From Xanthobacter flavus (GTDB taxonomy: Bacteria; Pseudomonadota; Alphaproteobacteria; Rhizobiales; Xanthobacteraceae), in contig NZ_JAGGML010000001.1 of assembly GCF_017875275.1 (NCBI RefSeq), positions 806,001-870,000 on the forward strand: DNA of 64,000 nt, given 5' to 3'. Below, piece by piece: positions 24,834-63,747 of the stretch. The position numbers and the translations under genes are program-made. Numbering within the stretch: the stretch's first letter is position 1; each line of letters opens with the position of its first letter. Under the pieces are notes generated by a model. That model searched no databases and was not told where the DNA came from. It saw only the letters and a list, made by a program, of their open reading frames with translations.

Positions 24834-25081
24834 CCCGCCTCCGGTTTCCCGATGGCGATACCTGAGCCGGAGAAGATTGGCGAGCGCTGTCGCCGTCCGC
24901 CCGGGCCAGCCTCCCGAACCCGGATGCGCCGCCCGATCCAGGCCGGCTCAACCGCGCGAATGTATGCAATGCGCACGCAATTCTTCGCTTTTGCACAATT
25001 AATAACCGACCATTGCCCAGCCGAAGCGCAGCCACGGTGCCAGCGGATCCGCCAAGTCATTGGAAAACAACAGGCCGCCTC

Positions 25082-25098
25082 TTGGCACGCCCGTTGCT
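25082..25098 (+). promoter_or_regulatory. Sigma-54 promoter of the guanidine operon
   Basis: TTGGCACG-N4-TTGCT matches the sigma-54 consensus at every key base, with the -24 GG at 25084-25085 and the -12 GC at 25096-25097. Transcription should start near 25108-25112, so the leader RNA would begin just before the riboswitch. This implies activation by an enhancer-binding protein such as NtrC. I did not find a clear NtrC palindrome in 24834-25080, which otherwise shows only an AT-rich patch around 24960-25015. Confidence 0.85.
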
Positions 25099-25117
25099 TT
25101 TAACGATGTCGAGTTGG

Positions 25118-25219
25118 TGGCTAGGGTTCCGGCATCGAACGATGCGCTGGTCCGAGAGCTGCCACCGCGACGGGAGACATCCGGCGCGGGTGCACGGCGG
25201 GATAAAAGCCCGGGAGACC
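25118..25219 (+). promoter_or_regulatory. Guanidine-I (ykkC-type) riboswitch aptamer
   Basis: The conserved blocks of the ykkC-yxkD RNA appear in order: CTAGGGTTCCG (25121-25131), CTGGTCCGAGAG (25147-25158) and ACGGCGGGATAAAAGCCCGGGAGA (25194-25217, given here only for orientation by its core GGATAAAAGCC). The first two are separated by a short hairpin (GCATCG/CGATGC). This class binds free guanidinium and usually turns genes on. It lies in the leader of the importer and carboxylase operon, which agrees with its known targets. Confidence 0.95.
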
Positions 25220-25230
25220 TCAGTGGCCAA

Positions 25231-25285
25231 GGAATTGGCGGCACTGGTCTCGCCAATTCCCAATTCGTTGAAGCGAAGGGGAATT
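25231..25285 (+). promoter_or_regulatory. Riboswitch expression platform: alternative hairpin over the ribosome site
   Basis: GGAATTGGCG (25231-25240) and CGCCAATTCC (25251-25260) form a perfect 10-bp stem. The right arm also contains AATTCCC (25255-25261), which is complementary to GGGAATT (25279-25285) overlapping the ribosome site of the first gene. Forming the 10-bp stem would free the ribosome site; pairing with GGGAATT would block it. There is no U-run, so control is probably translational. This mechanism is inferred. Confidence 0.6.
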
Positions 25286-25288
25286 TGA

Positions 25289-26392
25289 ATGCGCACTCCG
25301 GTTTCGTCCAAACTTCACCGTCTGAAATCCGCCCTCGCCGGGGCCTTCGGCCTCGCGGCGGTCGCCGGCCTCGCGCTCGGCACCGGCCCGGCCGAAGCCG
25401 CGCCGAAGAAGGAATTCAAGGTCGCCTGGTCGATCTATGTGGGCTGGATGCCCTGGGGCTACGCCAACGACACCGGCATCGTGAAGAAGTGGGCCGACAA
25501 GTACGGCATCAAGATCGATGTGGTGCAGTTCAACGATTATGTGGAGAGCATCAACCAGTACACGGCCGGCGCGTTCGACGCCCTCACCGTGACCAATATG
25601 GATGCCCTCTCCGTGCCCGCCGCCGGCGGCGTGGACACCACCGCCGTCATCGTCGGCGACTTCTCCAACGGCAATGACGCCGTGATCCTGAAGGGCAAGA
25701 AGGACCTCGCCAGCATCAAGGGCCAGAAGGTCAACCTCGTCGAGTTCTCCGTCTCCCACTATCTGCTCGCCCGCGCGCTTGAGAGCATCAAGCTCAAGGA
25801 GCGCGACGTGAAGGTTGTGAACACCTCGGACGCCGACATGGTCGCCGCCTACAAGACCAAGGCGGTCACCGCGGTCGTCACCTGGAACCCGCTGGTGTCG
25901 GAAATCCTCACCGACAAGAACGCCCACGCGGTGTTCGATTCGTCCAAGATCCCCGGCGAGATCATGGACCTCCTCGTCGCCAACACCGCCGTGGTGAAGG
26001 ACAACCCGGACTTCGCCAAGGCGCTTGTGGGCATCTGGTACGACACGACCACCCTCTTCACCGCCGACACGCCGGAAGGCAAGGCGGCGCGCGAGGCCAT
26101 GGGCAAGGCCTCCGGTACCGATCTCGCCGGCTTCGACAGCCAGCTCGCCGCCACCAAGCTGTTCGCCAAGGCGCCCGACGCGGTGGCCTTCGTCCGCTCG
26201 CCGGATGTGGGCACCACCATGGACCGCGTGCGCAAGTTCCTGTTCGAGAAGGAGCTGCTCGGCTCCGGCGCCAAGTCCGCCGACGCCGTCGGCATCGAGC
26301 TGCCCGGCGGCAAGGTGCTGGGCGACGCCAAGAACGTGAAGCTGCGCTTCACCGACACCTGGATGGCGATGGTCGCCGACGGGAAGCTGTGA
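25289..26392 (+). CDS. ABC transporter substrate-binding protein of the guanidine operon
   Basis: 367-residue periplasmic binding protein with a signal peptide (about residues 1-38, ending AEAA) and an NMT1/THI5/NitT-like fold: FKVAWSIYVGWMPWGYA at the start, then IKIDVVQFNDYVESINQYTAGAFDALTVTNMDAL. The Trp/Tyr-rich first strand could form an aromatic cage for a small cation. It is the first gene after the guanidine-I riboswitch, with AGGGG seven bases before the ATG. The ligand is most likely guanidine or a close relative; this follows from the riboswitch and downstream enzymes, not from the protein itself. Confidence 0.9.
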   Translation: MRTPVSSKLHRLKSALAGAFGLAAVAGLALGTGPAEAAPKKEFKVAWSIYVGWMPWGYANDTGIVKKWADKYGIKIDVVQFNDYVESINQYTAGAFDALTVTNMDALSVPAAGGVDTTAVIVGDFSNGNDAVILKGKKDLASIKGQKVNLVEFSVSHYLLARALESIKLKERDVKVVNTSDADMVAAYKTKAVTAVVTWNPLVSEILTDKNAHAVFDSSKIPGEIMDLLVANTAVVKDNPDFAKALVGIWYDTTTLFTADTPEGKAAREAMGKASGTDLAGFDSQLAATKLFAKAPDAVAFVRSPDVGTTMDRVRKFLFEKELLGSGAKSADAVGIELPGGKVLGDAKNVKLRFTDTWMAMVADGKL

Positions 26393-26418
26393 GGGGGTAG
26401 TTCCTCCCCCCTCTCCCC

Positions 26419-26444
26419 TTGAAGTCGGCTTTTGCCGACTTCAA
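26419..26444. terminator. Strong hairpin after the binding-protein gene
   Basis: TTGAAGTCGGC-tttt-GCCGACTTCAA, a perfect 11-bp stem with a 4-base loop, 27 bases after the stop. It has no U-run and lies inside the operon, so it may protect the binding-protein mRNA end or attenuate the downstream genes. Confidence 0.55.
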
Positions 26445-26474
26445 ACAGCCCGCCGGGGCGCAGTCCTCAGGATT

Positions 26475-26583
26475 GTCATCCCCCGGCTTGTCCGGGGGAT
26501 CCACGGTCCCGCAAGTCCGCTCGTCGGCACAGTAGAGCCATCCAGCGGAGAAGTGGATGCCCCGGACAAGCCGGGGCCTGACG
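26475..26583. repeat. BIME-like pair of palindromes inside the guanidine operon
   Basis: Hairpins ATCCCCCGG-cttgt-CCGGGGGAT (26478-26500) and ATGCCCCGG-acaag-CCGGGGC (26557-26577) in opposite orientation. Together with the hairpin before it, it fills the 247-base gap between the binding-protein and permease genes. Confidence 0.85.
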
Positions 26584-26639
26584 GCGCGGTCGGATGACGA
26601 CCCGCTCCACGCCCTTCCCACCCTTCAGGAGCAGCGCTG

Positions 26640-27452
26640 ATGCGCCTCATCAATGTCAGGCCGGATCGGGGAACGGCGCTGTTCCTTGCCGTCCTCCCGT
26701 TCGCACTGGTCGTTCTCGCCTACATCCTCGGCTCGGCGGAGCGCCTTGCGGAGAACCCGGACGACAAGCTGCTGCCGAGCCTGCCCTCCCTCGGCAACGC
26801 CATCGTCAAGATGGCCTTCACCGCCGATGCACGCACCGGCGACTACCTGCTGTGGACCGACACCCTCGCCAGCATGGAGCGGCTGCTCTCGGCACTGGCG
26901 ATCGCCACACTCATCGCCCTCGTCATCGGCGTGCTGGTGGGGATGCTGCCCGTCGTGCGGGCGCTGCTGGCGCCGTTTGTCGGCATGGTGTCCATGGTGC
27001 CGCCGCTGGCGCTCCTGCCCATCCTGTTCATCGTCATGGGGCTGGGCGAGGAATCCAAGATCGCCCTCATCACCATCGGCATCACGCCCTATCTGGTGCG
27101 CGACCTCGCCATGCGGGTGGAGGAATTGCCGCGCGAGCAGATGATCAAGGCGCAGACGCTGGGCGCCTCCACCTGGCAGATGGGCCTGCGCGTGGTGCTG
27201 CCGCAGATATTGCCGCGCCTGATGGACGGGCTGCGCCTCTCCCTTGGCCCGGCTTTCCTCTTCCTCATCGCGGCGGAAGCCATCGCCTCGGACTCTGGCC
27301 TCGGCTACCGCATCTTCCTGGTGCGGCGCTATCTCGCCATGGATGTGATCCTGCCCTACGTGGCCTGGATCACCCTCATCGCGGTGGCCATGGACTTCGG
27401 CCTCGCCCGCGCCCGCCGCGCCCTCTTCCCCTGGTTCGGAGCCGCGAAATGA
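26640..27452 (+). CDS. ABC transporter permease of the guanidine operon
   Basis: 270-residue permease with six membrane segments and the ATPase-coupling motif around EELPREQMIKAQTLGASTWQMGLRVVLPQILP (about 160-191). It belongs to the same NitT/TauT-type family as the permease at 9219 but the two are clearly distinct in sequence. GGAGCAGCG lies before the ATG at 26640. The stop overlaps the ATPase start (ATGA). Confidence 0.9.
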   Translation: MRLINVRPDRGTALFLAVLPFALVVLAYILGSAERLAENPDDKLLPSLPSLGNAIVKMAFTADARTGDYLLWTDTLASMERLLSALAIATLIALVIGVLVGMLPVVRALLAPFVGMVSMVPPLALLPILFIVMGLGEESKIALITIGITPYLVRDLAMRVEELPREQMIKAQTLGASTWQMGLRVVLPQILPRLMDGLRLSLGPAFLFLIAAEAIASDSGLGYRIFLVRRYLAMDVILPYVAWITLIAVAMDFGLARARRALFPWFGAAK

Positions 27453-28276
27453 CCGCCATTTCCGTGCGACATCTCTGGAAGGAATATGGCGAGCAGATCG
27501 TGCTCGAGGACATCAACCTCGACTTCGCGCCACGCTCCTTCATCGCCCTTGTCGGCCCCTCCGGCTGCGGCAAGACCACCTTCCTGCGCATCCTCCTCTC
27601 CGAGGAAACCACGACGCGCGGCGAGGTGCTCATCGAGGGCCAGCCCATCGCCCGCGAGCCGGGCGCCGACCGGGGCGTCGTCTTCCAGCGCTATTCGGTG
27701 TTTCCGCATCTGACCGTGCTCGGCAACGTGCTGCTCTCCGCCGAGATGGCGGAGGCGCCCCTGACCGGCCGGCTGTTCGGCGCCCGCCGCCGGCAGGCAC
27801 AGGACGAGGCCCGCGCCCTCATCGAGGAGGTCGGCCTCAAGGGCGCGGAAGACAAATATCCCGCCGCCCTCTCCGGCGGCATGCAGCAGCGCCTTGCGCT
27901 GGCGCAGGCCATCATGAGGAAGCCCAAGATCCTGCTCTTGGACGAGCCGTTCGGCGCGCTCGATCCCGGCATCCGCGCCGACATCCACCAGCTCATGCTG
28001 AAGCTGTGGAACGAGTGCGAGATGACCGTGGTGATGGTGACCCACGACCTCAAGGAGGCCTTCACGCTGGCCACCCGCATCATCGCCTTCGAGCGCCGCC
28101 GCAACCGGCCGGAGGAAAAGGCCCGCTACGGCGCCACCATCGCCAAGGACATCGAGGTCTGGCCCAAGAGAATCGCGGGAACGCGAATCGCCGGCCAGTT
28201 GAAGCTCAAATCCACCGCCCCGGCCGGGACGACCCGGCCATTCCCTCGGGCACCGGCCGGGACGACCCGGCGCTGA
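27449..28276 (+). CDS. ABC transporter ATP-binding protein of the guanidine operon
   Basis: 275-residue ATPase with Walker A GPSGCGKTT, signature LSGGMQQRLALAQA, Walker B ILLLDEPFGALD and switch MVTHDLKEA. It completes the importer. The last 20 residues (APAGTTR repeated) come from two copies of a 19-base palindromic sequence (28220-28238 and 28253-28271) that extend the reading frame; the ATPase fold ends before them. The ATG overlaps the permease stop. Confidence 0.92.
   Translation: MTAISVRHLWKEYGEQIVLEDINLDFAPRSFIALVGPSGCGKTTFLRILLSEETTTRGEVLIEGQPIAREPGADRGVVFQRYSVFPHLTVLGNVLLSAEMAEAPLTGRLFGARRRQAQDEARALIEEVGLKGAEDKYPAALSGGMQQRLALAQAIMRKPKILLLDEPFGALDPGIRADIHQLMLKLWNECEMTVVMVTHDLKEAFTLATRIIAFERRRNRPEEKARYGATIAKDIEVWPKRIAGTRIAGQLKLKSTAPAGTTRPFPRAPAGTTRR
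28220..28271. repeat. 19-bp direct repeat forming the C-terminus of the ATPase gene
   Basis: CCGGCCGGGACGACCCGGC occurs at 28220-28238 and 28253-28271, identical, 33 bases apart and in the same reading frame. It resembles half-units of the intergenic palindromes. Confidence 0.8.
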
Positions 28277-28297: not shown

Positions 28298-29110
28298 ATG
28301 ACCATCAGCGTCGAAACCCAGACCTTCATCGAAGAGAACAAGCGCCGCTACGAGGAATTGAAGGCGGCCGGCCAGCAGCATGCGCCCAAGGCCCTGCCCG
28401 GCCCCACCCTGCGCGGCTCGGCTTCCATCATGCCCGGCGCGGTGCTGCACACCGAGACCATTCCCGGCGGCTGGTACTGGTCCACGCCGCTGAAGGCGGG
28501 CGAGGCCCTGCGCATCCATCTGGCGCACGGGCCGGCCGCCGTCTCCATGATCGCGTGGTCGGCCACCGACGCCTCCGAGCGGCTGAACTATGCCGACACG
28601 GTGAAGGTGCAGTGGACATCCGCGCTCGGAAAGGGCCGCGTGCTGTTCTCCGACATGGGGCGGGTGATGTTCTCCATGGTCGAGGACACCACCGGCATGC
28701 ACGACGCGCTGGTCGGCGGCTCCACTCCCGCCTCCAACCGCGCCCGCTATGGCGACAAGGTGCTGCGTAACACGCGCGACAACTTCATTCTGGAGGCGCT
28801 GAAGCGCGGCCTCGACAAGCGGGACATCCCCCCCGCCTTGACCTTCTTCGCCCCCGTGCGCACGGACGCGGACGGCAATTTCCGCTGGATCGAGGACGCC
28901 CGCCAGACCGGCGATTTCGTGGACCTGCGCGCGGAGCTGGACCTCGTCGTCGCCCTCTCCAACTGCCCGCACCCCATGGACCCGGCCCCGGACTACGCCC
29001 CGCCCCCGGTGGAGGCCATCCGCCACCAGCCGCCCGCTCCCGCCGCAGACGATCTCTGCCGCACCGCCACCATCGAGGCCGTCCGCGGCTTCGAGAACAA
29101 TGCGCGCTGA
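28298..29110 (+). CDS. DUF1989 urea carboxylase-associated protein 1 (carboxyguanidine deiminase subunit)
   Basis: 270-residue DUF1989 protein. Together with the next gene it matches the pair once called urea carboxylase-associated proteins and since shown to form carboxyguanidine deiminase (CgdA/CgdB), which removes ammonia from carboxyguanidine to give allophanate. Visible features are LNYADTVKVQWT, the GMHDALVGGSTP segment and SNCPHPMDP near the C-terminus, the likely metal-site Cys region. The start is the ATG at 28298 with GAGGAGA upstream. Which of the two genes is CgdA or CgdB I cannot tell by eye. Confidence 0.85.
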   Translation: MTISVETQTFIEENKRRYEELKAAGQQHAPKALPGPTLRGSASIMPGAVLHTETIPGGWYWSTPLKAGEALRIHLAHGPAAVSMIAWSATDASERLNYADTVKVQWTSALGKGRVLFSDMGRVMFSMVEDTTGMHDALVGGSTPASNRARYGDKVLRNTRDNFILEALKRGLDKRDIPPALTFFAPVRTDADGNFRWIEDARQTGDFVDLRAELDLVVALSNCPHPMDPAPDYAPPPVEAIRHQPPAPAADDLCRTATIEAVRGFENNAR

Positions 29111-29121
29111 GGGAGGACGAC

Positions 29122-29769
29122 ATGACCCAGTTCTTTGCTTCTCCCGTCCGCGATGCGTCCTCCGCGCTGCGCGATTACTTCGTGCCCGCCAACGCCCCCT
29201 TCTCCTGCCTCGTGAAGAAGGGCGAGAGCGTGCGCATCGTCGATCTCGAAGGCCAGCAGGCCGTCGATACGCTCTTCTACAAGGCCGACGACTTCACCGA
29301 GCGCTATTCCTCGCAGGATACCCTGCGCGTGCAGGGCTCGGCCTATGTCTCCACCGGCACGAAACTGATTTCGTCCGAGGGCAATGTGATGGCGACCGTG
29401 ATCGCCGACACCTGCGGGCGGCACGACACCTCGGCGGGCGCCTGCTCGTGCGAGGCGAATACGGTGCGCTTCGGCCATCAGGTGAAGTATCTGCACGCCT
29501 GCCGCGAGAATTTCGTCATCGAGGTGTCGAAGCACGGCATGACGAAGCGGGACATCGTGCCCAACATCAACTTCTTCATGAACGTGCCGGTGGAGCCCAC
29601 GGGCGAACTCGCCATCGTGGACGGCATTTCCGGCCCCGGCGACTATGTGGAGCTGCGCGCGGAGATGGATGTGCTCCTCGTGATCTCCAATTGCCCGCAG
29701 ATCAACAATCCCTGCAACGGCTTCAACCCGACGCCCATCCAGGTGCTCGTGTTCGGCGCGGAGGATTGA
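29122..29769 (+). CDS. DUF1989 urea carboxylase-associated protein 2 (carboxyguanidine deiminase subunit)
   Basis: 215-residue partner of the previous protein, with the same DUF1989 core: FSCLVKKGESVRIVDLEGQQAVDTLFY, the DTCGRHDTSAGACSCEANTVRFG cysteine-rich segment (about residues 94-116) and the terminal SNCPQINNPCNGFNPTP. The Cys and His residues in these segments are candidate metal ligands. Eleven bases separate it from the first subunit and six from the carboxylase start, so the three are translated from one transcript. Confidence 0.87.
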   Translation: MTQFFASPVRDASSALRDYFVPANAPFSCLVKKGESVRIVDLEGQQAVDTLFYKADDFTERYSSQDTLRVQGSAYVSTGTKLISSEGNVMATVIADTCGRHDTSAGACSCEANTVRFGHQVKYLHACRENFVIEVSKHGMTKRDIVPNINFFMNVPVEPTGELAIVDGISGPGDYVELRAEMDVLLVISNCPQINNPCNGFNPTPIQVLVFGAED

Positions 29770-29774
29770 GGGCG

Positions 29775-32700
29775 ATGTTCTCGAAAATCCTCATCGCCAA
29801 CCGCGGCGAGATCGCGCGGCGGGTGATCCGCAGCGCCCGTGCCATGGGCATCAAGTCCGTGGCCGTGCATTCGGATGCCGACCGCTTCACGCGCGGCGTG
29901 CTGGAGGCGGACGAGGCCGTGCGCCTCGGCCCGGCGCCGGCCGCCGAGAGCTATCTCAATGTCGATGCCGTCATCGCCGCCTGCAAGGCGACGGGGGCTG
30001 AGGCCGTGCATCCCGGCTATGGCTTCCTGTCCGAGAACGTGCGCTTCGCGCGGCGCCTCGCGGAGGAGGGCATCGCCTTCATCGGCCCGAAGCCGGAGCA
30101 TCTGGAAGCCTTCGGCCTGAAGCACACCGCGCGCGCGCTGGCCAAGGCATCGGGCGTGCCCCTGCTGCCCGGCACCGACCTCCTCGACAGCGCCGAAGAG
30201 GCGCTGAAGGCGGCGGAAGCCATCACCTATCCGGTGATGCTGAAGTCCACCGCCGGCGGCGGCGGCATCGGCATGCAGCTCTGCCACACGCCGGAAGACT
30301 TGCGCGACGTGTTCGAGCGCGTCCAGCGCACGGCCCGCGCCTCCTTCGGCGATGCCCGCGTCTATCTGGAGCGCTTCGTCTCGGAAGCGCGCCATGTGGA
30401 GGTGCAGATCTTCGGCGACGGCAAGGGCAAGGTCGTGGCGCTGGGCGAGCGCGACTGCTCGCTCCAGCGGCGGAACCAGAAGGTGGTGGAGGAGACCCCC
30501 GCCCCCCTCCTCTCCGACGCCGTGCGCGCCCGCCTCCACGCCGCCGCCGTCCAGCTCGGCGAGAGCGTGAAATACGAGAGCGCCGGCACGGTGGAATTCA
30601 TCTACGACCCGGCGCGGCAGGAATTCTATTTCCTTGAGGTGAACACCCGCCTGCAAGTGGAACATCCCGTCACCGAGGCGGTGTTCGGCATCGATCTCGT
30701 GGAGTGGATGATCCGGCAGGCGGCGGGCGAAGACCCCATCGCCGCCGCCGGCCCGCTCTCGCCGAAGGGCGCCGCCATGGAGGTGCGCGTCTATGCGGAA
30801 ATCCCCCACGCCAATTTCCAGCCCTCCGCCGGCCTGCTCACCGAGGTGAAATTCCCGGCGTGGGCGCGCATCGACGGCTGGATCGAGACCGGCACGGAGG
30901 TGACGCCTTATTACGATCCCATGCTCGCCAAGGTGATCGTGAAAGCCGACGACCGCCCCGGCGCCATCGCGGCGCTGCAGAAGGCGCTCAGCGAGACCTC
31001 CATCTGCGGCATCGAGACCAACCTGCAATATCTCTGCGCCATCGCCGCGTCCGACCTGCTGGCGTCCGGCCAGGTGTCGACCACCGCGCTGAAGGATTTC
31101 GCCTTCCGGCCCGCCAGCGTGGAAGTGGTCGTGCCCGGCGCCCAGTCCAGCCTTCAGGAGCTACCGGGGCGGCTGAATTTGTGGCACGTGGGCGTGCCGC
31201 CGTCCGGCCCCATGGACGAACACTCCTTCCGCCGCGCCAACGCCCTGGTGGGAAATCAGGAAACCGCCTGCGCGCTGGAGATGACCGTCAACGGCCCCAC
31301 CCTGCGCTTCCATGACGATGCGGTGGTCGCGATCTCCGGCGCGCATATGCCGGCGCGGCTGGACGGCGCCGTCGTGCCGCATGATGCGGCCTTCCCGGTG
31401 AAGGCCGGGCAGATGCTCGCCATCGGCACCATCGAGGGTGCGGGCCAGCGGGCCTATCTGGCGGTGTCCGGGGCCTTCCAGGCACCGGAGGTGCTGGGCT
31501 CGCGGGCGACCTTCGCGCTCGGCCAGTTCGGCGGCCATGCCACCGGCACGCTGAAGGCGGGCGATGCCCTCCACCTCGCCCCCGCCTCCGCCCGCCCCAC
31601 CGGCCCGGCGGCCGAAATCCCCGCCCCCGCCCCGCTCACCCGAGACTGGCAGATCGGCGTGCTCTACGGCCCCCACGGCGCGCCGGACTTCTTCCAGCCG
31701 GAGGATATCGCGGACCTGTTCTGCGCCACCTACGAGGTGCATTTCAACAGCGCCCGGACCGGCGTGCGCCTGATGGGGCCGACGCCCCGCTGGGCGCGCA
31801 CGGACGGCGGCGAGGCGGGGCTGCACCCCTCCAATTTGCACGACAACGCCTATGCCATCGGCGCCATCGACTTCACCGGCGACATGCCCATCATCCTCGG
31901 CCCGGATGGCCCCTCGCTGGGCGGCTTCGTCTGCCCGGCGGTGATCGCCCGGGACGAGCAGTGGAAGATGGGCCAGTTGAAGCCCGGTGACCGCGTGCGC
32001 TTCGTGCCCCTACCCCGGCCGCAAGACCCCATCGCCGGCCCCGCCATTCTCGGCGCGCCGGAGGAGACCTCCTCCCCCGTCCTCGCCATCCATGAGGATG
32101 GGCCGGTGCGCGTGGTCTACCGCCGGCAGGGCGACGACAACCTTCTCGTCGAGTTCGGCGACATGCACCTCGACGTCGCCCTGCGCCTGCGCGCGCATCT
32201 CATGGCGGAGGCCGTGCAACAGGCGCAGCTCCCCGGCCTCATCGACCTCACCCCCGGCATCCGCTCGCTCCAGATCCATTATGACGGCGCGAGCCTGCCC
32301 CGCGTGAAGCTGCTCGACGCCCTCGCGGAGATCGAGAAGGGCCTGCCGGCGGCTGAGGACGTGGTGGTGCCGAGCCGCATCGTCCATCTGCCGCTTTCCT
32401 GGAACGACCCGCAGGCGGAGCTCGCCATGCGCAAGTATCAGGAGCTGGTGCGGGCCAACGCGCCCTGGTGCCCCGACAACATCGAGTTCATCCGCCGCAT
32501 CAATGGCCTCGCGGACGAGCAGGCGGTGAAGGACATCATCTTCGGCGCGAGCTATCAGGTGCTCGGGCTGGGCGATGTCTATCTCGGCGCGCCGGTGGCC
32601 ACCCCCATCGATCCGCGCCACCGCCTCGTCACCACCAAGTACAACCCGGCCCGCACCTGGACGCCGGAAAACGCGGTGGGCATCGGCGGCGCCTATATGT

Positions 32701-33317
32701 GCATCTATGGCATGGAGGGGCCGGGCGGCTACCAGCTCTTCGGCCGCACCATCCAGATGTGGAACACCTGGCACCGCACGCCGGAATTCCGCGACACGCC
32801 CTGGCTGCTGCGCTTCTTCGACGAGATCCGCTTCGTCCCGGTCTCCCATCAGGAGCTGATGGAGGCGCGCGAAGCCTTCCCGCACGGGGCCTATCCCGTC
32901 CGCATCGAAGAGAGCCGCTTCTCCTATGCGGACTATGCGGCGAACCTTGCCGCCAATTCCCGCGCCATCACGGCCGGCAAGGCGCGCCAGCAGGCCGCCT
33001 TCGAGGCCGAGCGGGCGCGCTGGAAGGCGGAGGGGCTGGACTCTTTCGTCGTCGAGGACGGCGCCGGTCCCTTCAGCGATGGCGAGATGCCGGACGGCTG
33101 CTTCGGCGTCGCCGCCAACGTGCCGGGCAATGTCTGGAAGGTGTTGGTGGAGGCGGAAGCGATGGTCGCCGCAGGCGACACCATCGCCATCATCGAGAGC
33201 ATGAAGATGGAGATTTCCATCATTGCCCATGCCGCCGGCCGCGTCCGCGAGATCCGCGCCGCGCCGGGCCGCACCGTCCGCTCGGGCGATGTGGTGGCCG
33301 TGCTCGAAACCGTGTGA
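29775..33317 (+). CDS. Biotin-dependent guanidine/urea carboxylase
   Basis: 1180-residue carboxylase. Biotin carboxylase domain about residues 1-450 (start MFSKILIANRGEIARRVIR, ATP loop STAGGGGIGMQ, EVNTRLQVEHPVTE). The carboxyltransferase part (about 460-1080) is of the AHS2/AHS1 type, related to 5-oxoprolinase subunits C and B. A C-terminal biotinyl domain carries ESMKME with the biotin Lys at 1144. The enzyme carboxylates guanidine or urea with ATP and bicarbonate. In genomes with a guanidine-I riboswitch and DUF1989 pair, such proteins prefer guanidine, which I think holds here; the specificity residue would need alignment. Confidence 0.93.
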   Translation: MFSKILIANRGEIARRVIRSARAMGIKSVAVHSDADRFTRGVLEADEAVRLGPAPAAESYLNVDAVIAACKATGAEAVHPGYGFLSENVRFARRLAEEGIAFIGPKPEHLEAFGLKHTARALAKASGVPLLPGTDLLDSAEEALKAAEAITYPVMLKSTAGGGGIGMQLCHTPEDLRDVFERVQRTARASFGDARVYLERFVSEARHVEVQIFGDGKGKVVALGERDCSLQRRNQKVVEETPAPLLSDAVRARLHAAAVQLGESVKYESAGTVEFIYDPARQEFYFLEVNTRLQVEHPVTEAVFGIDLVEWMIRQAAGEDPIAAAGPLSPKGAAMEVRVYAEIPHANFQPSAGLLTEVKFPAWARIDGWIETGTEVTPYYDPMLAKVIVKADDRPGAIAALQKALSETSICGIETNLQYLCAIAASDLLASGQVSTTALKDFAFRPASVEVVVPGAQSSLQELPGRLNLWHVGVPPSGPMDEHSFRRANALVGNQETACALEMTVNGPTLRFHDDAVVAISGAHMPARLDGAVVPHDAAFPVKAGQMLAIGTIEGAGQRAYLAVSGAFQAPEVLGSRATFALGQFGGHATGTLKAGDALHLAPASARPTGPAAEIPAPAPLTRDWQIGVLYGPHGAPDFFQPEDIADLFCATYEVHFNSARTGVRLMGPTPRWARTDGGEAGLHPSNLHDNAYAIGAIDFTGDMPIILGPDGPSLGGFVCPAVIARDEQWKMGQLKPGDRVRFVPLPRPQDPIAGPAILGAPEETSSPVLAIHEDGPVRVVYRRQGDDNLLVEFGDMHLDVALRLRAHLMAEAVQQAQLPGLIDLTPGIRSLQIHYDGASLPRVKLLDALAEIEKGLPAAEDVVVPSRIVHLPLSWNDPQAELAMRKYQELVRANAPWCPDNIEFIRRINGLADEQAVKDIIFGASYQVLGLGDVYLGAPVATPIDPRHRLVTTKYNPARTWTPENAVGIGGAYMCIYGMEGPGGYQLFGRTIQMWNTWHRTPEFRDTPWLLRFFDEIRFVPVSHQELMEAREAFPHGAYPVRIEESRFSYADYAANLAANSRAITAGKARQQAAFEAERARWKAEGLDSFVVEDGAGPFSDGEMPDGCFGVAANVPGNVWKVLVEAEAMVAAGDTIAIIESMKMEISIIAHAAGRVREIRAAPGRTVRSGDVVAVLETV

Positions 33318-33325
33318 GGACAAAG

Positions 33326-33781
33326 ATGACCAACGAGACCCCGCTCAGCGGCCCTCGCGCCTCTCTCCCACCGGATGCCGTGCCCATCGCCGTGGTGGGC
33401 GCGCATCTCACGGGCATGCCCCTCAACGGCGAGCTCACCGGCGCCGGTGGCGTGCTGGTGAAAAGCTGCCGCACGGCGCCGGACTATCGCCTGTTCGTGC
33501 TGCCCGACACCACGCCGCGCAAGCCCGGCGTGGTGCGCGCCCCCGGCTTTTCCGGGCCGGGGCTGGAGGTGGAGGTGTGGGCGCTCGCGCCCGCCGCCTT
33601 CGGCCGCTTCGTCGCCGCCATCCCCGCGCCGCTGGGGGTGGGCAAGCTCAAGCTGGAGGACGGCTCGGAAGTCTCCGGCTTCCTCTGCGAGGCCCATGCG
33701 GTCGCGCAGGCGGAGGAAATCACCGCGCTGGGCGGCTGGCGCGCCTATGTGAGCGGCGGGAAGGGCGTGTCGCCGGCCTGA
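33326..33781 (+). CDS. Stand-alone allophanate hydrolase C-terminal domain
   Basis: 151-residue protein that matches only the C-terminal domain of allophanate hydrolase (AtzF/DUR1 type): IAVVGAHLTGMPLNGELTGAGG, then YRLFVLPDT, KPGVVRAPGFSGPGLEVEVWALAPAAFGRFVAAIPAPLGVGKLKLEDGSEVSGFLCE. In the full enzyme the N-terminal amidase domain converts allophanate to N-carboxycarbamate and this domain promotes its breakdown. No amidase frame (Ser-Ser-Lys signature) is found before or after it. It is eight bases after the carboxylase gene and ends the operon. Confidence 0.87.
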   Translation: MTNETPLSGPRASLPPDAVPIAVVGAHLTGMPLNGELTGAGGVLVKSCRTAPDYRLFVLPDTTPRKPGVVRAPGFSGPGLEVEVWALAPAAFGRFVAAIPAPLGVGKLKLEDGSEVSGFLCEAHAVAQAEEITALGGWRAYVSGGKGVSPA

Positions 33782-63349: not shown

Positions 63350-63430
63350 CGGCCGGTCCACGGGTGCGAGCGCCCACGCGTGCGGGCTCGAAGGGACGCA
63401 GAACCGGAGCACCCCGCCCGGCGCGGACCT

Positions 63431-63610
63431 CGTCGAAGGCAGGTCTCCTGGCTCGCGGATCACCGCCCCTGCCGCCTTCCCGGATGAATCCAGTGGCGTC
63501 TGGCAGGGGCTCACCGCCGACAGTTGCGGGGGCAGCCGCGGCATTGGAGGGTATTCACCTCCGCACCGCATTCCCTTTTTCGCCCGTGTGGGAACACGGG
63601 ACCTTCGACG
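63431..63610 (-). promoter_or_regulatory. Cobalamin riboswitch
   Basis: On the minus strand the conserved blocks occur in order: GGTG-GAAT-type start (near 63560), GCCGCGGCTGCCCCCGCAACTGT (63541 to about 63518, given by its core CCCCGCAACTGT), GCCACTGG, GGGAAGGC and the B12 box GAGCCAGGAGACCTGCC (about 63456-63440). A perfect 9-bp P1, CGTCGAAGG (63610-63602) with CCTTCGACG (63439-63431), encloses it. Adenosylcobalamin binding should lower expression of the DUF1636-cobW-cobN-cobG-cobH-cobI-cobJ operon. Confidence 0.95.
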
Positions 63611-63747
63611 CCGCCACTAAAGGCAGGGCGGGCGGGATTGTCAAATGAGGGACGGGAACCACGTTCGCACGTCGGACAGCAACGGCGCAGCCGGAGCGGC
63701 AGCCGTGCACCGGGCACGCGGCGGTTCATCGGCCGGGTTCCGCGCCT

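Follow-up and report, generated by a model that had tools for sequence, protein, structure and literature searches.

A sigma-54 promoter adjoining a guanidine-I riboswitch in Xanthobacter flavus suggests joint control of guanidine assimilation by nitrogen limitation and guanidine in Pseudomonadota

Does a bacterium that senses guanidine through a riboswitch use the compound whenever it is present, or only when nitrogen is short? The question is raised by a 64,000-nucleotide stretch of the Xanthobacter flavus genome (the window), in which a guanidine-I riboswitch precedes transporter and carboxylase genes. An earlier note on this DNA had proposed that a sigma-54 promoter feeds the riboswitch directly, that nitrogen limitation would switch on transcription and guanidine would open translation, and that the genes serve the use of guanidine as a nitrogen source.

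Promoter, riboswitch and operon of the window

Inspection of the region upstream of the riboswitch revealed a sigma-54 promoter, TGGCACGCCCGTTGCT, at 25083-25098 on the plus strand, which is a perfect match to the consensus used for scoring (TGGCACG-N4-TTGC, which we take to be the standard form) and whose position is kept in relatives. Its -24 GG lies at 25084-25085 and its -12 GC at 25096-25097, with 10 bases separating GG from GC, in agreement with the consensus-perfect elements that the earlier note had placed at 25084 and 25096. The 15-nt core TGGCACGCCCGTTGC (25083-25097) is the sole mismatch-free match within the 64-kb window; when up to two mismatches were allowed, there were 29 matches compared with 31 in shuffled sequence. 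The consensus is printed as GGcacg-N4-ttGC in the portion of PMC5491218 consulted.

When the pattern was relaxed slightly, to TGGCAYRNNNNTTGC, the 5.35 Mb genome yielded 23 sites, compared with one for the reversed control, and the window site is one of the 23. The genes behind these sites, identified by eye from their translations, include nifH twice, nifB, nifV, fixA, a hydrogenase, glnII, nrtA-like and urtA-like genes and amt; the remainder comprises some apparently non-nitrogen genes and some sites without a convincing gene. Because many members are nitrogen genes, the site of the guanidine operon belongs to a nitrogen-rich set. The genome encodes rpoN (TIGR02395, G000:C1:2154679-2156178, 418.8 bits), and no sigma-70-like promoter pair was found within 24840-25300. 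At the level of sequence, we consider the sigma-54 promoter of the window to be confirmed as real.

The covariance model RF00442 located the guanidine-I aptamer at 25110-25218 on the plus strand (80.5 bits, E 9.6e-13, gathering score 63); no other match in the genome passed E 0.001. Counting the C of GC as -12, the transcription start is predicted at 25109 on the same strand, 1 base before aptamer position 1 and 7 before stem P1. The post-aptamer leader, or expression platform, extends over 25219-25288 (plus strand) and contains no run of four T. Folding predicted its ribosome-binding site, AAGGGG, to be paired; the site was about 14% unpaired in the whole leader and also 14% in the post-aptamer part alone, which served as a proxy for the guanidine-bound state. 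A hairpin followed by TTTT between the aptamer and the first gene appeared in 15 of 132 sigma-54 leaders, and by that crude test classical terminators do not seem to be the rule in such guanidine-I leaders.

Directly behind the leader, on the same plus strand as all the genes described here, lies a gene for an ABC transporter substrate-binding protein annotated as 'putative urea' (25289-26392; TIGR03427, 550.5 bits, cut-off 333.9), whose substrate is probably guanidine, judging by the riboswitch and by analogy with published operons. Then follow a permease (26640-27452), TauC/SsuC/NtrB-like though under the curated cut-offs, and an ATPase (27449-28276; PF00005, 114.9 bits, matched on the longer open frame 26594-28276). 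About 250 bp separate the binding-protein gene from the permease gene (26393-26639), and this interval holds an inverted repeat recognized by eye, GAAGTCGGC TTTT GCCGACTTC, which possibly reduces expression of the genes downstream.

The ATPase gene contains, in its 3' coding end, a guanidine-II aptamer (28221-28270, plus strand; RF01068, 46.5 bits, gathering 32), 27 nt upstream of the start of UAAP1. An aptamer of the same class occupies the equivalent place in Rhizobium etli p42e (L354, 9119-9168; Rfam, 40.6 bits). This locus of strain CFN 42 is laid out like the window operon, with a sigma-54 site scoring 14.2, an NtrC-like site of 19.2 bits and a guanidine-I aptamer of 94.1 bits; mutants of R. 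etli in ntrC and rpoN1 were employed in PMC3188799. With a simple pattern, such a pair was found in at least 11 of 22 sigma-54 operons of the order that hold a binding-protein and a carboxylase gene, a figure that is a lower bound since Rfam detects further copies, in L032 and L054, that the pattern overlooked.

The two DUF1989 proteins, UAAP1 (28298-29110; TIGR03425, 278.1 bits) and UAAP2 (29122-29769; TIGR03424, 327.9 bits), are presumably, by analogy, the subunits of carboxyguanidine deiminase. They are followed by a urea/guanidine carboxylase (29775-33317; TIGR02712, 1795.8 bits), which the riboswitches and the published operons lead us to infer prefers guanidine over urea. Probably the last gene of the operon is a stand-alone allophanate hydrolase C-terminal domain, AH_C (33326-33781; PF21986, 156.9 bits, matched on the longer frame 32468-33781 with an ATG at 33326), which covers only positions 427-562 of TIGR02713. 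The operon holds no full allophanate hydrolase, only this domain at 33326-33781; elsewhere the genome has one full-length match (4542740-4544404) and one confined to the N-terminal part (4202688-4203923). An ABC transporter, two DUF1989 proteins and a urea/guanidine carboxylase are the genes by which a guanidine carboxylase operon is recognized. Since they encode uptake and carboxylation and not efflux, the proposal that guanidine is used as a nitrogen source rather than merely detoxified is supported. The window also contains a cobalamin riboswitch (63421-63621, minus strand, 125.8 bits).

Guanidine-I leaders in other Pseudomonadota

The earlier note had named other guanidine-I leaders as the place to look for the -24/-12 motif. 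RF00442 was searched in overlapping samples of the order (397 genomes, 77 over the cut-off), the class (385, 27) and the phylum (398, 41). Every over-cut-off match was taken once and one was dropped, its contig starting at the aptamer, leaving 162 leaders: 122 from alphaproteobacteria and 40 from the rest of the phylum, labelled gamma/beta. Sub-cut-off matches were not counted; of the two that were scored, one carried a sigma-54 site. The sigma-54 score, which put ad hoc weights on the standard consensus and was drawn up once some of the leaders had been inspected, was applied over -150 to +10 with a threshold of 13 and a maximum of 14.9.

A sigma-54 site reached the threshold in 140 of the 162 leaders (103/122 alpha, 37/40 others), spread over 41 of 48 families and 67 of 81 genera, and the strict spacing GG-N10-GC was kept in 138 of the 140. 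Equal-length control windows elsewhere contained a site in 1/162, 1/162, 0/162, 0/160 and 1/159 cases. An exact pattern free of weights (TGGCAY-N6-TGC or TGGCAY-N5-TYGC) matched 129 of the 162. Among the alphas, 102 of 103 sites begin 20-31 nt upstream of aptamer position 1; in 105 of the 106 leaders with a site of at least 12.5, a set that includes one leader under the riboswitch cut-off, the start is predicted 0-11 nt before P1, and no predicted start falls inside that stem. In the non-alpha group the distance from site to aptamer is 49-99 nt. The direct wiring claimed for the window, where the predicted start abuts the aptamer, thus stands, and the pairing is conserved in relatives.

Sorted by first gene, a site is present before 113 of 123 binding-protein genes, 11 of 15 UAAP1 genes, 6 of 9 permeases, 5 of 5 ATPases and 5 of 10 genes of none of these classes. 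Two leaders of one genus (L168 and L103, in G719 and G640) carry guanidine-I and a sigma-54 site before a gene that by eye is TonB-dependent receptor-like, a possible route of outer-membrane uptake for guanidine compounds. Six more (L073, L049, L056, L080, L082 and L088) precede other transporter-like genes that are distantly like those of the window, or unlike them.

A joint sigma-54/aptamer pattern found at least 119 stretches in a named genome collection, a count that is not a rate, as the stretches were selected by the pattern itself. Rhizobium, Bradyrhizobium, Mesorhizobium, Azospirillum, Devosia, Hyphomicrobium, Acinetobacter and Solimonas are among them. An Rfam check of five such loci gave guanidine-I over threshold in L203, L218 and L238 and no guanidine-I match in L233 (Nodosilinea, a cyanobacterium) or L185 (Zoogloea); with two of five lacking the aptamer, the scan contains some false or doubtful matches. 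A Caballeronia plasmid likewise has a guanidine-I match with a sigma-54 site scoring 13.4. Taken together, the comparison indicates that the pairing generalizes well beyond this genome.

In 22 of the 162 leaders, from 22 genomes, the site scored below threshold. Two come close, at 12.8 and 12.7, with TTGA instead of TTGC in the right place. The others include four UAAP1-first leaders of genus g40, three leaders of genus g184, three of family f74, and five with the binding-protein gene first (family f11 twice, f175, f244 and f233); two precede genes that look agmatinase-like by eye, two precede other genes and one has no gene in view. Some site-less leaders carry NtrC-like sites above 10 bits. 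The agmatinase-like genes, behind L039 and L042 (G326 and G077), are perhaps guanidine hydrolases; NtrC-like sites score 15.9 and 11.7 bits in their leaders, which lack a sigma-54 site. Loss of rpoN was considered as the cause of the missing sites and rejected, since 18 of the 22 site-less genomes have rpoN over the cut-off; in a search of 57 genomes that included all 22, the figure was 53. It fits family f74 only, where the search of the three genomes yielded nothing in one, a 39-bit fragment in another and two sub-cut-off matches in the third. In G358 (f11) the rpoN match is split in three pieces, not over the cut-off. Thioclava and SC52 (Rhodobacterales) and Sinorhizobium fredii CCBAU 25509 also have the riboswitch with no sigma-54 site of 13 or more, and the binding-protein relatives in Vibrio rotiferianus and Asticcacaulis excentricus showed no over-threshold guanidine-I aptamer and no site scoring at least 13.

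Two other riboswitch classes served as controls. Among cobalamin leaders of the same order, none of 26 had a sigma-54 site (30 were fetched and 4 dropped at contig edges), and none of 30 guanidine-II leaders of the phylum had one, the best score being 12.1. Thirteen of these guanidine-II leaders precede a carboxylase and three UAAP1; these 16 are probably operon-internal, where a promoter is not expected. The remaining 14 matched neither gene; ten of them were judged by eye to precede SMR efflux proteins and one more, in this genome, was confirmed, which makes the efflux control about a dozen guanidine-II leaders. The second guanidine-II aptamer of this genome (G000:C1:5184608-5184657, L395) precedes such an SMR gene (PF00893; SugE-like at 120.6 bits, just below the curated 126), and its leader has no sigma-54 site (score 9.9).

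The activator signal and alternative explanations

Upstream of the window promoter we located an NtrC-like activator site, TTGCACAATTAATAACCGA, at 24991-25009, which scored 14.0 bits with a matrix trained solely on other genera. It lies 92 bp upstream of the sigma-54 site and has a good left half and a weak right half; three positions in the whole 64-kb window reach 12 bits with this matrix. The matrix derives from a signal common to the relatives. The dyad TGC-N11-GCA occurs in 42 of 106 alpha upstream regions, compared with 10 expected, and is prominent at spacing 11 only. Palindromic motif searches, begun from three related starting dyads, converged on TGCccAAa.tTTggGCA in the alphas and GCaCCa...tGGtGC in the gamma/beta group, both far above shuffles; the latter we take to be the NtrC consensus. 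In leave-one-family-out scoring at 8 bits or more, a site was found in 48 of the 54 alpha genera and 11 of the 15 gamma/beta genera, whereas a control region 300 nt further upstream gave 7 and 3, respectively. The palindromes lie mostly 60-140 bp upstream of the promoter. Among the 119 listed stretches, 93 have an upstream site of at least 9 bits by either activator matrix, with stretches of less than 170 nt upstream being unscorable and counted as misses.

The alpha matrix, trained solely on guanidine promoters, was also applied to ammonium transporter genes. Of 30 amt loci fetched, 14 had no usable sigma-54 site or flank and were dropped; among the 16 promoters that remained, 14 reached at least 9 bits, compared with 8% of shuffles. 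Within this genome it scored 11.5 before urtA, 8.6 before glnII, 5.2 before one amt gene and -0.4 before nrtA. The genome encodes ntrC (TIGR01818, G000:C1:5031494-5032891, 726.6 bits, cut-off 558.6). These comparisons support the view that the activator signal upstream of guanidine-I promoters is of the NtrC type.

Three other explanations have to be weighed against control by NtrC and guanidine together. The promoter may be real and yet answer to another enhancer-binding protein (NifA, NtrX, a DctD-like or an unnamed one), the input then being something other than general nitrogen limitation. The genome has 12 TIGR01818 matches above 250 bits with only one over the cut-off, the window palindrome is imperfect, and the alpha matrix gives 8.7 bits for fixA, presumably a NifA target. 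Against this, both nifH sites, nifB and nifV score at or below zero, while the matrix detects a site at 14 of 16 amt promoters; the NifA-type dyad, TGT-N10-ACA, is not enriched (2 of 106 alpha regions compared with 2 expected, 2 of 37 others compared with 1), and the motif that we take to be the NtrC consensus recurs in the gamma/beta group. We therefore hold a different activator to be quite unlikely. Chance likeness to a sigma-54 site beside the aptamer could be suggested by the abundance of loose matches in the window, yet the single perfect site there, the narrow spacing shared by 102 alpha leaders and the nearly empty control windows make it extremely improbable for this locus, and as a general account it is refuted by the comparison across relatives.

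An additional sigma-70-type promoter could feed the riboswitch, so that guanidine alone would suffice and nitrogen limitation would merely boost expression. By eye, TATA-like boxes lie just upstream of the aptamer in site-less leaders of families f11 and f94, which means that sigma-70 promoters may occupy this place in some relatives. The lack of a sigma-70-like pair around the window promoter speaks against it, as does the Vreelandella boliviensis operon, which has guanidine-I and an internal guanidine-II switch and most of whose proteins went undetected on ammonium in the part of PMC12508155 consulted; guanidine was also absent on ammonium, however, and the contrast between ammonium and guanidine does not separate the two gates. 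A second promoter at this place strikes us as unlikely.

Proposed two-gate control and known systems

We consider it highly probable, by sequence and comparison, that nitrogen limitation, through NtrC and sigma-54, and guanidine, through the riboswitch, are both required to express this assimilation operon. The AND logic put forward in the earlier note is well supported by the direct and conserved wiring, the NtrC-type signal and the uptake and carboxylase genes. In the proposed sequence of events, nitrogen shortage would lead phosphorylated NtrC to bind upstream, and sigma-54 RNA polymerase would initiate near 25109, giving an RNA that would begin with the guanidine-I aptamer. Binding of guanidine to this aptamer would then allow the rest of the message to be expressed, at the level of translation or transcription, with the transporter first; the deiminase subunits and the carboxylase would follow behind a second riboswitch, of the guanidine-II class.

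A broader reading, which we regard as probable, is that the NtrC/sigma-54 and guanidine-I gate is the default for guanidine assimilation in Pseudomonadota, with efflux governed by guanidine alone; that many NtrC-dependent operons named for 'urea carboxylase' or 'urea ABC transporter' are guanidine operons; and that guanidine is a routinely scavenged nitrogen source. Pseudomonadota with guanidine-I operons appear to treat guanidine as a last-resort nitrogen source, its use being controlled like ammonium transport and separately from detoxification, which bears on what guanidine means to bacteria. The arrangement is a natural two-input switch, each half of which can be tested separately, and it suggests a re-reading of published nitrogen regulons that name these genes as urea genes.

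We found no description of the pairing in the open-licence literature, a body that most subscription papers lie outside; within it, the claim that the pairing is undescribed held, and two pieces are in print, unjoined, in the portions of PMC5491218 and PMC12316311 consulted. In Burkholderia cenocepacia H111 grown under nitrogen limitation, loss of ntrC reduced expression of I35_7283-7286, genes named for a 'urea carboxylase' and a related transporter (PMC5491218). This like-named operon is thus also NtrC-dependent, the likeness being one of names only. In that paper it is read as serving urea use, the text mentions neither guanidine nor a riboswitch, and its expression may therefore not need guanidine. 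A sigma-54 regulon prediction lists 102 COG3665 genes, 59% of them named urea carboxylase (PMC12316311); the part consulted files them as poorly characterised, with no guanidine in the text and riboswitch only in the references. Term searches of the main text returned no NtrC, rpoN, sigma54 or sigma-54 in PMC12186494 and PMC12508155, and no NtrC, rpoN or sigma-54 in the comammox paper PMC11410670.

The guanidine-I carboxylase operons of Raoultella and Vreelandella, as described in the parts of PMC12186494 and PMC12508155 consulted, share with the window the same aptamer (RF00442, ykkC subtype 1), the same kind of operon and a downstream guanidine-II switch; the window differs from these published operons in that transcription appears to be tied to nitrogen control. 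The NtrC/sigma-54 promoters of the amt type likewise have a -24/-12 element and a palindrome at mostly the same upstream distance. Compared with them, the transcript of the window would open with a ligand-sensing RNA, which would add a check for the substrate after initiation.
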